Source of the DNA: Nodosilinea sp. FACHB-131
GTDB lineage: Bacteria > Cyanobacteriota > Cyanobacteriia > Phormidesmidales > Phormidesmidaceae
Length of the DNA stretch: 64,000 bases
Direction: 5' to 3'
Assembly (NCBI RefSeq): GCF_014695395.1
Contig: NZ_JACJOF010000017.1
Span: forward strand, 62,001 to 126,000
Shown here piece after piece: positions 2,912 through 7,415 of the stretch. Position 1 is the stretch's first letter; each line of letters begins with the position of its first letter. The notes below the pieces were generated by a model. It worked only from the letters and a program-made list of their open reading frames with translations, had not been told where the DNA came from and searched no databases. Position numbers and translations under genes: made by a program.

Positions 2912-3406
2912 CTAGGAGAATGCTGCCGTTGTCAGGGCGATCGCGCGTTTAGCAGCATAGGCGCGAGCGATGGTGTCGCAGCGCTCGTTGCCGGGGTCCC
3001 CGGAGTGGCCGCGCACGTAGATCCACTGCAAGGGGCGATCGAGGGTCTGGTTCACCTCGGTGGTGACGCTGTCCAAGGCCTCCCACAGATCGCGGTTAAG
3101 CACGGGCTTTTTGGCTGAGTTAACCCAGCCGCGCCGCTTCCAGCCGGCGATCCACTGGGTGATGCCCTTGAGAACGTATTCGCTGTCGGTGTGAATGGTG
3201 ACGGTCTCGGTTTGGCCGCTGTCGCGCAGCAGGGTCAAACCGGCGATCGCCGCCTGCATCTCCATGCGGTTATTGGTGGTTTGGGCTTCGCCTCCCCCCA
3301 ACTCATGGATGCCGCCGTCGGCTAGGTAGAGCACCGTGCCCCAGCCGCCGGGGCCAGGATTGCCAGAACAGGCACCGTCGGTATAGATTCGCTGAATGAT
3401 GGCCAT
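2912..3406 (-). CDS. rnhA: Ribonuclease HI
   Basis: 164-residue ribonuclease H type 1, which cuts the RNA strand of RNA-DNA hybrids (R-loops, primers). The four metal-binding carboxylates are visible: Asp10 in YTDGACSGNPGPGGWG, Glu49 in NNRMEMQAA, Asp74 in IHTDSEYV and Asp144 in GNERCDTIA, with His134 in the flexible loop RGHSGDPGNE. The basic handle region (AGWKRRGWVNSAKKPVLNRDLW) is present. Length is normal for bacterial RNase HI and there is no N-terminal hybrid-binding domain. It lies upstream of gshA on the same strand, about 130 bp away; no functional link is implied. Confidence 0.95.
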   Translation of the reverse strand: MAIIQRIYTDGACSGNPGPGGWGTVLYLADGGIHELGGGEAQTTNNRMEMQAAIAGLTLLRDSGQTETVTIHTDSEYVLKGITQWIAGWKRRGWVNSAKKPVLNRDLWEALDSVTTEVNQTLDRPLQWIYVRGHSGDPGNERCDTIARAYAAKRAIALTTAAFS

Positions 3407-3487
3407 TGGTTCGATAGAATCCTCAAAAGTCGTTGGTTCAGCCGTGAAAGTTTAGGTTCCCAGGGGGCATGTTAAAGGTAAGACCGG

Positions 3488-4006
3488 ATGTCCTCCCCGG
3501 ACACCATACATTCAGGTCATGGGCAGGGTGCACCTACTATCGTCACGGTTTATCCCAACGGTGAAGTTAACCCCATGATGCTACGAGAACTAAAAGCTTT
3601 TGAGGCTTGCTGGCTAGATCTTAAGGATGTTTATCCGACCAGCGGCCAAGACAACATGTTGATTGCCCACGCTATGGGTCAGATGGTGGATTGCCTAGCT
3701 AAGCCCAATCAGATCGAGCAAGACCTGCCCAACCATTTACAGGGGCTCTTTCGGCGGCTGGCGCTGGCCTACTTTCAGGGATACTCCCCCGCTGAAGGGC
3801 CGTTTGAGGCAGCTGTAGTTGCTTTGCCCATTCCCCAGCCCTGTCCCCACAGCGATCGCCAGCGGCGGCAAGATATCTCAGCGGCGGTCGAACGCGTCAA
3901 AGCCCTGGCCCAACAGACCCAGTCCCGCATGTGTACCTCTCGGGGACAGGCGGCCCAGTGCGCCACCTCAGAGATGGAGACCCTGATTATTGAATTTTCA
4001 GATTGA
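3488..4006 (+). CDS. Conserved hypothetical protein
   Basis: 172-residue soluble protein that I cannot assign. It has no signal peptide or membrane segment. The N-terminal half is a mixed alpha/beta region (TIVTVYPNGEVNPMMLRELKAFEACWLDLKD is split here only by description), followed by helical segments. The C-terminal third contains a Cys-containing stretch (SRMCTSRGQAAQCATSEME) and an acidic end. It is 71 bp upstream of dnaX on the same strand, so it could be cotranscribed with it, but no pathway link can be seen. A bona fide gene is likely because the frame is long, starts with ATG and fills the gap between rnhA and dnaX. Confidence 0.6.
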   Translation: MSSPDTIHSGHGQGAPTIVTVYPNGEVNPMMLRELKAFEACWLDLKDVYPTSGQDNMLIAHAMGQMVDCLAKPNQIEQDLPNHLQGLFRRLALAYFQGYSPAEGPFEAAVVALPIPQPCPHSDRQRRQDISAAVERVKALAQQTQSRMCTSRGQAAQCATSEMETLIIEFSD

Positions 4007-4077
4007 CTGGCCCCAAACTGCTCAGGAGAGTTAGGTTAACCCCCCAGAGATAGGGGCCGGCACGGTATCTTAGTGCT

Positions 4078-7000
4078 ATGGCCTACGAACCGCTGCACCA
4101 CAAGTATCGCCCCCAGACCTTTGGCGCTCTGGTGGGGCAAGATGCGATCGCGACTACCCTCACCAGCGCTCTCAACCAGCAGCGCATTGCCCCTGCCTAC
4201 CTATTTTGCGGCCCCCGGGGCACGGGCAAAACTTCCAGTGCCCGCATCTTGGCCAAATCACTCAACTGCATTGCCCAAAATCACCCTACCCCAAACCCCT
4301 GCGGCATCTGCGAAACCTGTCGCTCGATCGCCAACGGCTCGGCCCTCGACTTCATTGAAATCGACGCCGCCAGCAACACCGGGGTCGACAACATTCGTGA
4401 ACTGATCGAGCGCGCTCAATTCGCCCCAGTGCAGTGTCGCTACAAGGTCTATGTGATTGACGAGTGCCTGACAGGCGACTCCTTAGTCCTCACCCAAGAC
4501 GGCCTAGTCAGGATTGACGATCCTTCAATCGAAGGCAAGCAGGTGCTTAGCTACAACGACCAAACAGCCTCTTGGGAGTTTAAGCGAGCTTTACGTTGGT
4601 TAGACCAAGGCACCCGAGACATTTTGGAAATTCAGACGACTCATCGTAAGATCAGATGTACTGGAAATCATTTAATTAGAACTGATCAGGGATGGGTAGC
4701 CGCAAGGGACATCAAATCGGGGAGCAAGATCTTGTCCCCTGCGCCTGTGGCTGCGGCACCCTCATCAACAGAGTTGGCTCTGACCGACGACTTCGCCGTT
4801 TCGTTGGAGGGCACCAGTTTAAGGGCAACACCTACGGCCAAAAGCCCTACAGCCTGGAGCTTATCCTTAAGCAAGCTAAGTTCCTGCGGCCAAGTTGCAA
4901 ATGCGGCTGTGGCGAAAAGCTGGGTATCCCAAAATTTCTACAGCAAAAAGGAAAAGGACTCAAAAGCATCCAAAGTTACTGGGAGAAACACCCTTATAGA
5001 AAGGGGCATGGGCTTTGGGATCTCAGAACCGAGCACCTCAACGAACAGCTCGAACCACTCTCTGCCGAAACCCTTGGGCTTATCTACGGCACGTTGCTGG
5101 GGGATGGATCTATCATTTATCCCAATAAATACAGCAGATTTCCCCGCCTGGCCTGGACTCATGGAGAACAGCAACGGGCATGGATGGAATACAAAGCATC
5201 CCGTCTTTCTAAGTTGCAGCCGAGCCTATACAGCACAGCCAATGCCGGCTACGGTGCAACCTCTATCTGTTGTCGAACCGTTTGCCACCCTGAACTTGTC
5301 CAGGTCCTCGACCTCGTTAGAAGCGGCGGTGGACGGAAAGTCGTTTCCTGTGACTGGTTATCCCAGATTTCTCCAGAAGGACTTGCCTGGTGGTACATGG
5401 ATGATGGCTCCCTCAGCCTCAGCCCCCAAGGCAGCCCCCAACTTCAGTTCCATACCGAAGGCTATTCCAACGCAGAAAATCAGCTCATTGCTGAATGGCT
5501 CACCGACTTGGGTTACTCAGCAAAAGTCAGATCCTACACAAAAGCCTTCAGCGGCAAGCGATACGACTACATCGCAATGGGGGCAAAGGCGGCTCGAAGC
5601 TGGCTGGTCGATCTGCAAAAGTTTTCCATTCCTGAAATGGACTACAAATTTGGAGACGGTCGTATCTGTCTGCCCCGCTGGAGTTGAACCGGTCTATGAC
5701 ATCGAGGTTGAAGACAACCACAACTTCGTTGCCAATGGGCTGTTGGTTCACAACTGTCACATGTTGAGTACAGCGGCGTTCAATGCCTTGCTCAAAACCC
5801 TGGAAGAACCGCCTAGCAATGTAGTGTTTATCCTCGCAACCACTGACCCCCAGCGGGTACTGCCGACGATTATCTCTCGCTGCCAGCGGTTCGACTACCG
5901 GCGCATTCCCCTAGAGCCGATGATCGCTCACCTGCGAAAAATTGCTGACCAGGAGGCGATCGCTATTAGTGACGAAGCCCTGCGGCTGGTGGCCCAGGTT
6001 TCCCAGGGGGGCCTGCGCGATGCCCAGAGTCTGCTCGATCAGCTCAGTCTGCTAGCGCCTCCTGTAGAAGCCGATGCGGTGTGGGACCTGGTAGGAGCCG
6101 TACCCGAGCGCGATCTGCTGGCCCTGGTGCAGGCCATCCTCAGTGACGACGGCACCACCGTGCTCGACGGTGCCCGCAAGCTCATGGATCGCGGCCGGGA
6201 GCCGCTGATTGTGCTGCAAAACCTGGCCGGGTTCTACCGCGACCTGCTGATTGCTAAGACGGCAGGCGATCGCCACGACCTAGTCGCCATAACTCCTCCC
6301 ACCTGGGCTGACATGCAAAGCCTGGTGCAACCTCTCGACCCAACGGTGCTGCTGCTGGGGCAACAGCACCTGCGCAGCGCTGAGGGGCAGGTCAAAAATA
6401 CCACCCAACCTCGGCTGTGGCTGGAAGTGACGCTGCTAGGACTGTTGCCCTCAACACTGGCAGGGCAAGCCGGTGGAACTATGAGTGCAGGGCGGCCGTT
6501 GGGTGCGATCGCCCCTCCAGACCGTCCGATCGCATCAAGCCCCCCGACTCAGGTAGCACCGCCAAGCGTCAGTCCACCGTCATCAGTGCCACCGCCTACC
6601 TCGCCAGACCTGGCGGTACCGCCGGGAACTGCCAATGGGACAGCACCAACGCCGGCCCCCGTGCCTGCCGCCGCATCAAATTCTCCCCCCAACAATGGCC
6701 AGAACGCCCCGCCCGCCGCTGAAGCCATCCCATCTCCTAACCTGGGGCAGCTGTGGCTTCAGGTGATAGCCGTGCTAGAGCCCCTGGGCACCCGCGCCCT
6801 AATGCAGCAGCAGGGCAGCTTGCTCTTTTTCGACGGTGTGGTGGCCCGAGTAGGCATTAGCTCTCGGCCATTGTTTAAGATGGCGCAGGGTCGAGTCGAG
6901 AATGTGGAAGCAGCCTTTCAGCAGGTGCTCAACCACAAAGTGCAGGTTTCCCTAGAGGTGCTGCCTGACCCAAAGCCTGAGGCCCCAGCCCCCAATATTT

Positions 7001-7347
7001 CTCAGGCGCCGGGGCAGAAAAACATCACCCCGCCCGCCCCAGTTGTTCTCAGTCCTCCTCCCCCGCCGGTCGTTTCAGCATCCCCCGCAGAATCGCTAGC
7101 AGAACCGGCTGCAACTCCTGAACCTGCTCCTGCGGCAGACCCCAGCCCCGCTGCTCCTGCGCCAACATCCCTACCTGCCATCGCCAGCGACTTTGACCGA
7201 GCCGTAAAAAACTTTGCCCATTTCTTTAATGGGCAAGTGGTCGACTTAGACGAAGATCTGAGCCCAGGGCTCGACCCAACCCTGCTGAAGCCCTCAGAGG
7301 CGGCAGCTAAGCAACCTTCCCACGCCGACAAAGACGTGCCGTTTTAG
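4078..7347 (+). CDS. dnaX: DNA polymerase III subunit tau/gamma precursor with intein
   Basis: 1089-residue precursor of the clamp-loader ATPase. Residues 1-129 hold the start of the AAA+ domain: Walker A GPRGTGKTS (45-53) and zinc cysteines C64, C75, C78 and C81. Residues 130-559 are a 430-residue intein. The sequence resumes at Cys560 (CHMLSTAAFNALLKTLEEPP), with sensor 1 (ATTD) and the GGLRDAQSLLDQL block. Removing the intein gives a 659-residue protein and restores the Walker B box VIDECH, which the intein splits between DE and CH. The C-terminal part has Pro/Ala-rich linkers around a conserved block (LGQLWLQVIAVLEPLGTRAL). I see no A-run slippery site in the C-terminal half for a tau/gamma switch. 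Splicing is inferred from the motifs. Confidence 0.95.
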   Translation: MAYEPLHHKYRPQTFGALVGQDAIATTLTSALNQQRIAPAYLFCGPRGTGKTSSARILAKSLNCIAQNHPTPNPCGICETCRSIANGSALDFIEIDAASNTGVDNIRELIERAQFAPVQCRYKVYVIDECLTGDSLVLTQDGLVRIDDPSIEGKQVLSYNDQTASWEFKRALRWLDQGTRDILEIQTTHRKIRCTGNHLIRTDQGWVAARDIKSGSKILSPAPVAAAPSSTELALTDDFAVSLEGTSLRATPTAKSPTAWSLSLSKLSSCGQVANAAVAKSWVSQNFYSKKEKDSKASKVTGRNTLIERGMGFGISEPSTSTNSSNHSLPKPLGLSTARCWGMDLSFIPINTADFPAWPGLMENSNGHGWNTKHPVFLSCSRAYTAQPMPATVQPLSVVEPFATLNLSRSSTSLEAAVDGKSFPVTGYPRFLQKDLPGGTWMMAPSASAPKAAPNFSSIPKAIPTQKISSLLNGSPTWVTQQKSDPTQKPSAASDTTTSQWGQRRLEAGWSICKSFPFLKWTTNLETVVSVCPAGVEPVYDIEVEDNHNFVANGLLVHNCHMLSTAAFNALLKTLEEPPSNVVFILATTDPQRVLPTIISRCQRFDYRRIPLEPMIAHLRKIADQEAIAISDEALRLVAQVSQGGLRDAQSLLDQLSLLAPPVEADAVWDLVGAVPERDLLALVQAILSDDGTTVLDGARKLMDRGREPLIVLQNLAGFYRDLLIAKTAGDRHDLVAITPPTWADMQSLVQPLDPTVLLLGQQHLRSAEGQVKNTTQPRLWLEVTLLGLLPSTLAGQAGGTMSAGRPLGAIAPPDRPIASSPPTQVAPPSVSPPSSVPPPTSPDLAVPPGTANGTAPTPAPVPAAASNSPPNNGQNAPPAAEAIPSPNLGQLWLQVIAVLEPLGTRALMQQQGSLLFFDGVVARVGISSRPLFKMAQGRVENVEAAFQQVLNHKVQVSLEVLPDPKPEAPAPNISQAPGQKNITPPAPVVLSPPPPPVVSASPAESLAEPAATPEPAPAADPSPAAPAPTSLPAIASDFDRAVKNFAHFFNGQVVDLDEDLSPGLDPTLLKPSEAAAKQPSHADKDVPF
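4465..5754 (+). mobile_element. DnaX intein with a nested out-of-frame endonuclease gene
   Basis: The intein covers codons 130-559 of dnaX. Block A is CLTGDSLVL with the nucleophile Cys1. Block B is CTGNHLIRTDQGWVAA. Blocks F and G are VEPVYDIEVEDNHNFVANG and LLVHN, followed by the +1 Cys of the C-extein, so all residues needed for standard splicing are present. Between about 4740 and 5690 the dnaX frame reads as a Ser/Thr/Pro-rich sequence with no domain signature, while the -1 frame encodes a LAGLIDADG endonuclease. From memory the Synechocystis DnaX intein has a similar length and site; I cannot verify that here. A two-indel sequencing artefact is the main alternative, but the dnaX frame staying open through the whole region argues against it. 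Confidence 0.88.
4692..5687 (+). CDS. LAGLIDADG homing endonuclease encoded in the -1 frame inside the intein
   Basis: 331-residue protein in a frame one base back from dnaX, wholly inside the intein. Residues 17-41 and 69-106 each carry a C-x-C-G-C-G cluster followed by a basic stretch and a Gly-His (Cys17/19/21...His41; Cys69/71/73...His106), likely metal-binding DNA-contact modules. Two LAGLIDADG helices follow: TLGLIYGTLLGDGS (127-140, catalytic Asp138) and EGLAWWYMDDGSL (229-241, Asp238). Those helices are of the kind seen in intron-type LAGLIDADG enzymes. The frame has a TGA at 4683-4685, nine bases upstream of the ATG, and stops at 5685-5687, where block F begins. No strong ribosome site is visible (CAGGG abuts the ATG). 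Its likely role is cutting intein-free dnaX alleles. Confidence 0.85.
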   Translation: MGSRKGHQIGEQDLVPCACGCGTLINRVGSDRRLRRFVGGHQFKGNTYGQKPYSLELILKQAKFLRPSCKCGCGEKLGIPKFLQQKGKGLKSIQSYWEKHPYRKGHGLWDLRTEHLNEQLEPLSAETLGLIYGTLLGDGSIIYPNKYSRFPRLAWTHGEQQRAWMEYKASRLSKLQPSLYSTANAGYGATSICCRTVCHPELVQVLDLVRSGGGRKVVSCDWLSQISPEGLAWWYMDDGSLSLSPQGSPQLQFHTEGYSNAENQLIAEWLTDLGYSAKVRSYTKAFSGKRYDYIAMGAKAARSWLVDLQKFSIPEMDYKFGDGRICLPRWS

Positions 7348-7415
7348 GGCGATCGAGTGCTACGTCTGAAATCTCAACTCGAAGTTAAACAGGATCCGGT
7401 ATCAGCTGGTCTCGT

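Follow-up and report, generated by a model that had tools for sequence, protein, structure and literature searches.

An intein in cyanobacterial dnaX with a predicted LAGLIDADG endonuclease gene nested in its -1 frame

The dnaX gene in a 64,000-nucleotide stretch of Nodosilinea sp. FACHB-131 (contig NZ_JACJOF010000017.1 of assembly GCF_014695395.1, positions 62,001 to 126,000; hereafter the window) is interrupted by an intein that wholly contains a second gene. This gene of 331 codons lies in the -1 frame and encodes a predicted LAGLIDADG endonuclease, which is likely to be started at an ATG of its own inside the intein. By cutting dnaX genes that lack the intein, the enzyme would help it to spread; we assign this reading a probability of about 0.9. 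Both frames are open, and between the ATG and the stop codon substitutions follow the endonuclease frame.

The dnaX open reading frame (ORF; DNA polymerase III gamma/tau; NF011510, E 3.2e-236) occupies positions 4078..7347 of the window on the plus strand, which carries all features of the window described here unless noted, and stays open throughout its 1089 residues, intein included. An N-extein of 129 residues (4078..4464, ending ...YVIDE) is followed by the 430-codon intein (4465-5754), which reads C-L-T ... V-H-N|C with Cys1 at 4465-4467, and then by the C-extein (5755..7347), whose first residue is the +1 Cys (5755-5757). In the dnaX frame, Intein_splicing of Pfam (PF14890) was matched at E 1.6e-14 over intein residues 23-430, the 155 positions of the family being spread over the two ends of the insert: an N-terminal splicing half with blocks A and B (residues 1-96; 4465..4752) and a C-terminal half with blocks F and G, ending in VHN (residues 389-430; 5629..5754). 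Between them lies a linker (residues 97-388; 4753..5628) that has no stop codon and is predicted to be disordered. The nested gene (4692..5687, 331 residues and a stop) overlaps this linker in the -1 frame, where the ORF is complete and was matched to LAGLIDADG_2 (PF03161) at E 2.3e-21. Its predicted start (4692..4694) arises within GGA TGG, the Gly-Trp codons of block B, its TGA (5685-5687) overlies V-E codons 5' of block F, and the -1 frame upstream of the ATG contains the stops TGA (4683-4685) and TAG (4677-4679). This layout had been proposed by a model from the letters alone (the sequence-only reading), and its coordinates for the intein, the ATG and the stop proved correct to the base; the two Pfam matches agree with its placing of the splicing parts in the dnaX frame and of the LAGLIDADG protein in the -1 frame, and the dnaX frame is indeed free of stops over all 331 codons.

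A scan of contigs with the 331-residue protein yielded 54 loci, 44 of them cyanobacterial (L002-L045) and 10 from Bacillus-like genera (L046-L055). All 44 cyanobacterial enzymes lie in dnaX, one frame back from the host (frames 2 and 1, or 3 and 2), and the ten Bacillus-like loci (25-40% identity) gave no dnaX match. L046-L050, L053 and L055 are free-standing LAGLIDADG_2 ORFs beside ORFs that by eye are flagellin-like. In a search of the phylum, dnaX was matched in 379 of 386 genomes, and loci were taken from the best 30 rows. Once known duplicates had been removed, along with two loci of phage helicases picked up by the intein query, the resulting sets comprised 53 full-length dnaX inteins (> 900 nt; 51 distinct; 34 clusters at 90% identity) and 16 short ones. 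The dnaX frame is open in 53/53 full-length and 16/16 short inteins. Every full-length intein has the endonuclease in the -1 frame, with an ORF of at least 320 codons in 43 of the 53, and the third frame holds 14-36 stops; the intein is 1290 nt long in 43/53. The claim of the sequence-only reading that both frames have been kept open is supported, and the -1 ORF that it proposed to look for in other cyanobacterial DnaX inteins is there. Two things that the sequence-only reading had named as contrary to it, an endonuclease in the dnaX frame of homologues and stops in the overlapping frame of close relatives, were both absent from the 53 full-length loci; the exceptions among homologous proteins are P0049, P0058 and P0070, which are weighed below. 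Remnants of the endonuclease are detectable in the -1 frame of at least 9 of the 16 short inteins, and because they keep these remnants, such short inteins look like deletion products.

The sequence-only reading had argued that a stop would fall about every 21 codons by chance. That the open frame lies beyond chance stands, with permutation as the decisive evidence; the figure of one stop per 21 codons overstates the surprise, and permutation is the fairer comparison. Synonymous codons were shuffled within each endonuclease gene at 34 intact loci, with L065-L073 left out. Shuffling of the gene in the window gave a mean of 5.4 dnaX-frame stops and never 0 in 1000 trials, against 0 observed, and in the third frame 14 stops were observed where 16.0 were expected. 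All 34 loci have 0 dnaX-frame stops vs 3.5-8.1 expected, a result reached by at most 9/1000 shuffles, and their third frames are near the shuffled expectation. A comparison of linker composition with permuted codons was uninformative, given that permuting the codons leaves the D/E count unchanged and that the z-scores reflected a changed denominator.

Divergence by codon position was calculated across 33 loci. In the exteins and the splicing halves it peaks at dnaX position 3, and in the overlap at dnaX position 2, the third position of the endonuclease codons; the periodicity switches frame in windows around 4692 and around 5680. Substitutions in the overlap were then counted for 12 pairs (5 close, 7 middle), some of which share a locus and four of which include a decayed copy; three further pairs of these bins were left out. 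Silent changes in the endonuclease that alter DnaX numbered 362, compared with 104 altering both proteins, 68 altering the endonuclease only, 11 silent in both and 3 making endonuclease stops. No change created a dnaX stop, where about 23 were predicted from the endonuclease-silent rate over 578 opportunities. The overlap thus tolerates most amino-acid changes in the dnaX frame but no stop. The ratio dN/dS (omega), which the earlier reading had proposed to calculate in both frames, over the 12 pairs came to 0.14 in the endonuclease and 0.75 in the linker, and among the five close pairs to 0.16 in the endonuclease frame. Because of this difference and the zero dnaX stops, selection appears to act on the protein sequence of the enzyme, and in the linker chiefly on keeping the frame open, with the linker amino acids themselves nearly free (omega 0.75). 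As judged from these patterns, the two genes form an overlapping (dual-coding) pair in which both frames are constrained more than either by itself would account for.

In an alignment of 31 dnaX-frame inteins, C1, T66, N68-H69 and H429-N430 are invariant, and the +1 codon is TGT or TGC in every locus that extends that far. The insert in the window is a predicted Hint intein, having an N-terminal Cys, a block B motif, a His-Asn end and a Cys+1. AlphaFold models built on the same 31 inteins have folded residues 1-96 and 389-430, with a predicted local distance difference test (pLDDT) score of 91-96 over residues 1-90 and 91-97 over residues 391-430; the score falls below 50 from residue 97, stays below 50 over residues 97-388 and is about 24-37 in blocks 101-390. 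An engineered mini-intein derived from the Ssp DnaX intein is described as splicing well in E. coli (PMC3620165).

The endonuclease, modelled from 49 aligned proteins, folds with a mean pLDDT of 87.7, and the nearest solved structures are I-WcaI (6x1j) and I-SceI (1r7m), with a template-modelling score (TM-score) of 0.74-0.75 on their length. Two LAGLIDADG motifs are present, GTLLGD at residues 133-138 (5088..5105), where G133, L136, G137 and D138 are invariant in the alignment, and WYMDDGS at residues 234-240 (5391..5411), where D237, D238 and G239 are. We take D138 and D237/D238, invariant across the 49 proteins, to be the catalytic residues. On the family match, the two motifs and the modelled fold, the nested ORF is a predicted LAGLIDADG_2 enzyme. 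N-terminal to these motifs are two CxCGC...H motifs, the first at residues 17-41 (4740..4814; C17, C19, C21 and H41 nearly invariant; zinc-finger-like by eye) and the second at residues 69-106 (4896..5009; C69, C71, C73 and H106 nearly invariant); that the first binds zinc is a guess. P0031 and P0036 each have several CxCGC modules, and the same module may be present in an additional copy in L037, whose intein is the longest dnaX intein of the set (1356 nt), since its endonuclease gave two matches to one part of the query. Because the relatives P0057 and P0061 begin directly at M..L(I/V)PCACGCG, the first ~15 residues of the endonuclease in the window look like overprinted intein codons.

The start codon is ATG in 53/53 full-length dnaX inteins. 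Wherever the block B residue is Gly, its codon is GGA (50/50), and none of the other conserved codons among the 42 compared varies as little in synonymous usage; in the exteins, GGA accounts for only 25% of Gly codons.

Several observations weigh against a nested gene with its own start. Premature stops or deletions have decayed or shortened the endonuclease frame in 10 of the 53 loci, all of which keep the dnaX frame open. No Shine-Dalgarno excess was found 5' of the ATG (mean -2.72 vs -2.51 for 645 internal ATGs), and a promoter scan for the endonuclease gene gave no match. GGA is also kept in 15 of the 16 short inteins, which have no working endonuclease, and the invariance of the ATG is therefore partly shared history. 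Among 79 homologous proteins, two (P0049, P0058) have the dnaX linker passing into the endonuclease frame as a single ORF, most likely through indels in contigs of 2.3-2.6 kb, and a third (P0070, 531 residues, 31% identical) joins a DnaX-like N-part to the N-terminal intein half and the endonuclease within a single frame that then stops, and is perhaps an in-frame variant or a split one. Between intein nt 170 and 330 the dnaX frame contains a classic slippery heptamer in 29/53 loci, 23 of which have AAATTTG at nt 305. The heptamers, an ATG lacking a Shine-Dalgarno excess and the precedent of P0070 for a one-frame fusion would suit programmed -1 ribosomal frameshifting, by which a fusion of the DnaX N-part, intein and endonuclease would be made with no independent initiation. 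We consider this unlikely, given that AAATTTG is lacking at nt 305 in the window and in 30/53 loci, that no heptamer is common to all 53, that the ATG is invariant, and that a shift at nt 305 would remove the first 26 residues of the enzyme.

The ten decayed or shortened loci would also suit an overlap that is a fossil, with the endonuclease dead everywhere and the open -1 frame left over. This is very improbable in view of the 43 of 53 loci that are intact over at least 320 codons, the low endonuclease-frame omega (0.14, and 0.16 in the five close pairs) and the invariance of D138 and D237/D238 in 49 proteins. Enzymes of the LAGLIDADG_2 family such as I-SceI are intron-encoded, and the insert might be taken for a group I intron with an endonuclease ORF on the strength of its nearest structures, I-WcaI and I-SceI, 6x1j being named a probable intron-encoded endonuclease. 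There is scant chance of this, since the splicing motifs and Cys1/Asn/Cys+1 are present and conserved, the full insert is open and in frame in 53/53 loci, and a search of window positions 3400-7400 matched no Rfam family at E up to 0.1; a conserved intron RNA structure is not apparent in the sequence. That two compensating indels from sequencing or assembly had displaced an ordinary in-frame endonuclease was proposed solely on the ground that inteins usually carry the enzyme in frame. The relatives already refute this candidate, which was rejected with a likelihood close to nil: the same offset occurs in 53 loci from many assemblies, including the complete genome record L012, and the substitution period changes frame at both boundaries.

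Under the preferred reading of a nested endonuclease gene, a ribosome making DnaX would read through the overlap to produce a disordered linker, which the two folded intein ends would splice out, and separate initiation at the ATG at 4692 would give the free enzyme. The enzyme would cut intein-free dnaX at the insertion site and so spread the intein. The arrangement could have arisen by insertion of a free-standing endonuclease gene into the loop of a small intein. The two ends of that gene would then have come to lie in conserved splicing motifs, with the block B G-W supplying the ATG and the V-E before block F the TGA. The earlier suggestion that a separate gene invaded a small intein is supported in that it fits the LAGLIDADG_2 family, the I-WcaI and I-SceI structures and the starts of P0057 and P0061. 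Because DnaX is presumably essential, host-frame stops would be purged, as would frame-breaking indels, and endonuclease-frame stops would be tolerated after homing ends; the appearance of the 10 decayed loci, and of the 16 short inteins, matches this expectation.

In the order to which the window belongs, dnaX was matched in 57 of 63 genomes searched. The full intein is present in 6 genomes (one contig ends inside the intein) and deleted forms in 2 (G021, G028); the other 49 matched genomes show extein matches only, some of them incomplete. A check of the junction in 30 loci gave 29 rows, 27 intein-free and 2 intein-bearing (L194, L196), and V(I/V)DE|CHML spans the junction in most intein-free relatives. 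Two intein-free genes (L083, L087) have Val, not Cys, after the insertion point, where the splicing Cys+1 would be absent; these sites are perhaps refractory to the dnaX intein. Between G038, of the same genus, and L002/L003, close kin of the window, the exteins are 92-93% identical and the endonucleases 69%; the G038 endonuclease is 70% identical to that of the window. Across 42 loci the endonuclease and extein identities correlate at 0.76, and therefore much history is shared by the two. The patchy presence and the 69% endonuclease identity vs 92-93% in the extein point to independent acquisition of the intein in G038 and L002/L003. This distribution fits horizontal spread, with homing not proven. 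Of 14 control genomes, only those of Methanocaldococcus jannaschii and Haloferax volcanii gave a PF03161 match.

The layout is widespread in cyanobacteria and, beyond what had been noticed in the window, recurs in phages, in other host genes and with a second frame offset. Viral contigs were scanned and 84 loci classified, being the best 80 of 153 relatives and 4 from other scans. An out-of-frame enzyme inside a longer open host ORF was found in 17 of them, 3 in the -1 frame (L096, L098, L104) and 14 in the +1 frame; the latter include L100 and L107, repeats of L099 and L106. When the hosts of 15 of these 17 were searched with Pfam, Intein_splicing was matched in 15/15 (E at most 0.025, with 6 matches exceeding the curated cut-off), and 14 had ResIII, DEAD or UvrD-type helicases or terminases around the intein, a few matched weakly; the host ORF of L137 gave no recognised host domain in Pfam. 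All 15 tested nested loci have 0 host-frame stops vs 2.1-11.4 expected under shuffling, the weakest results being those of L098 (63/1000 shuffles reach 0) and L096 (11/1000). A further nested -1 case is gp40 of Xanthomonas phage FoX3 (L212), annotated as a putative helicase, for which 22/2000 shuffles reach 0. In 24 of the 84 loci the enzyme lies in an own-frame ORF of at least 580 codons, and the 8 of these that were tested (e.g. L117, L119, L123) all have PF14890 and PF03161 in one ORF, as in ordinary in-frame inteins; the remaining 43 have shorter ORFs, outside the sorted classes. The terminase ORF of phage locus L105 (4428-7970) has a LAGLIDADG_3 match (PF14528, E 0.0038) upstream of an out-of-frame LAGLIDADG_2 gene, and perhaps holds two inteins in one gene.

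Broken forms were found in Pectobacterium phage Ymer (L210) and Escherichia phage AN_ECEAS (L211), where the helicase is divided between two same-frame ORFs, with 13 and 10 host-frame stops, respectively, from the end of the first ORF to the second. A -1-frame enzyme spans the gap and overlaps both helicase ORFs, and partial Pfam intein matches, all under the curated cut-off, lie on both sides; these are likely to be split inteins and look like a broken form of the nested layout. In L097, the two intein halves and the enzyme are three separate ORFs. The layout seems to grade into split inteins, and these forms have the look of successive stages that begin with the nested one and end with the split one, a direction that we infer. 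An endonuclease tree of 49 rows was generated, which included 16 of the 24 long in-frame loci and 8 chosen short-ORF loci. The ten -1 enzymes, from dnaX and phage helicases, group together (support 86/87; in 84% of bootstrap trees), whereas the +1 rows fall outside this group without being resolved among themselves (6 changes, of which the starred branches force only 1). Because the -1 enzymes group and the +1 rows stay apart, at least two origins of the out-of-frame layout are weakly suggested, the number being a minimum guess.

We lean towards a broader view in which dual-coding inteins form a class of mobile element that has arisen repeatedly. On this view, LAGLIDADG_2 genes have settled out of frame inside inteins on two or more occasions, in the -1 frame for DnaX and ResIII-type helicases and in the +1 frame for terminases and helicases of the DEAD/UvrD type. 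The enzyme would be freed from the host polypeptide and protected by the need of the host for an open frame, and host-frame stops would leave a split intein with a free-standing endonuclease. If true, this is an unrecognised route to natural split inteins. With the nested, the broken and the split form all represented among present-day loci, the origin of split inteins becomes open to testing.

Two other features were recorded. A small ORF upstream of dnaX (window 2912-3406, minus strand) is ribonuclease HI-like by eye, and elsewhere in the same genome, outside the window (G000:C8:18635-19861), a further intein-like PF14890 match of 44 bits lies in an 876-codon open frame.

Inteins are usually described as one polypeptide in which splicing and endonuclease domains are fused. 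Here the same DNA would encode an intein and a separate enzyme in different frames, an arrangement kept across cyanobacteria and found again in phages. At about 990 nt it is, to our knowledge, among the longest same-strand overlaps with comparative support outside viruses. The overlap would explain why the middle of these DnaX inteins has no fold in the host frame, and annotation from the host frame alone would misread it. No report of an out-of-frame endonuclease inside an intein was found in the literature searched; subscription papers, such as the original Synechocystis DnaX intein paper, lay outside that search and may contain an earlier notice, and novelty is claimed only against the literature searched.

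The closest known systems each share part of this layout. In bifunctional inteins such as PI-SceI, splicing halves likewise flank a LAGLIDADG enzyme and spread by homing is presumed, but that enzyme is in frame, whereas the predicted enzyme of the dnaX intein lies in the -1 frame in 53/53 loci, with its own start and stop, and would be no part of the DnaX polypeptide. Fractured genes with split inteins, reportedly described by Dassa et al. in 2009 as carrying a free-standing endonuclease between the halves, likewise place a separate endonuclease protein between splicing halves (compare L097, L210 and L211). Their host is broken; the dnaX frame is continuous through the intein in 53/53 loci, and one precursor would splice in cis. 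The Ssp and Spl DnaX inteins share host gene and intein type with that of the window (PDB 7cfv), and the portions consulted of the papers on them mention no second reading frame (PMC3443213, PMC3620165). The ShiLan domain (PMC11855218) is an out-of-frame HNH enzyme in a phage methylase, in an insertion where no splicing domain is detectable, and a second phage methylase with an HNH enzyme out of frame is reported in PMC12613952. ShiLan is likewise a homing-type endonuclease hidden in a different frame of an insertion that stays open for the host; it differs in being HNH and without a splicing domain, whereas the dnaX case appears to combine a LAGLIDADG_2 enzyme with the full splicing domain of a PF14890 intein, on cyanobacterial chromosomes and in other host genes.
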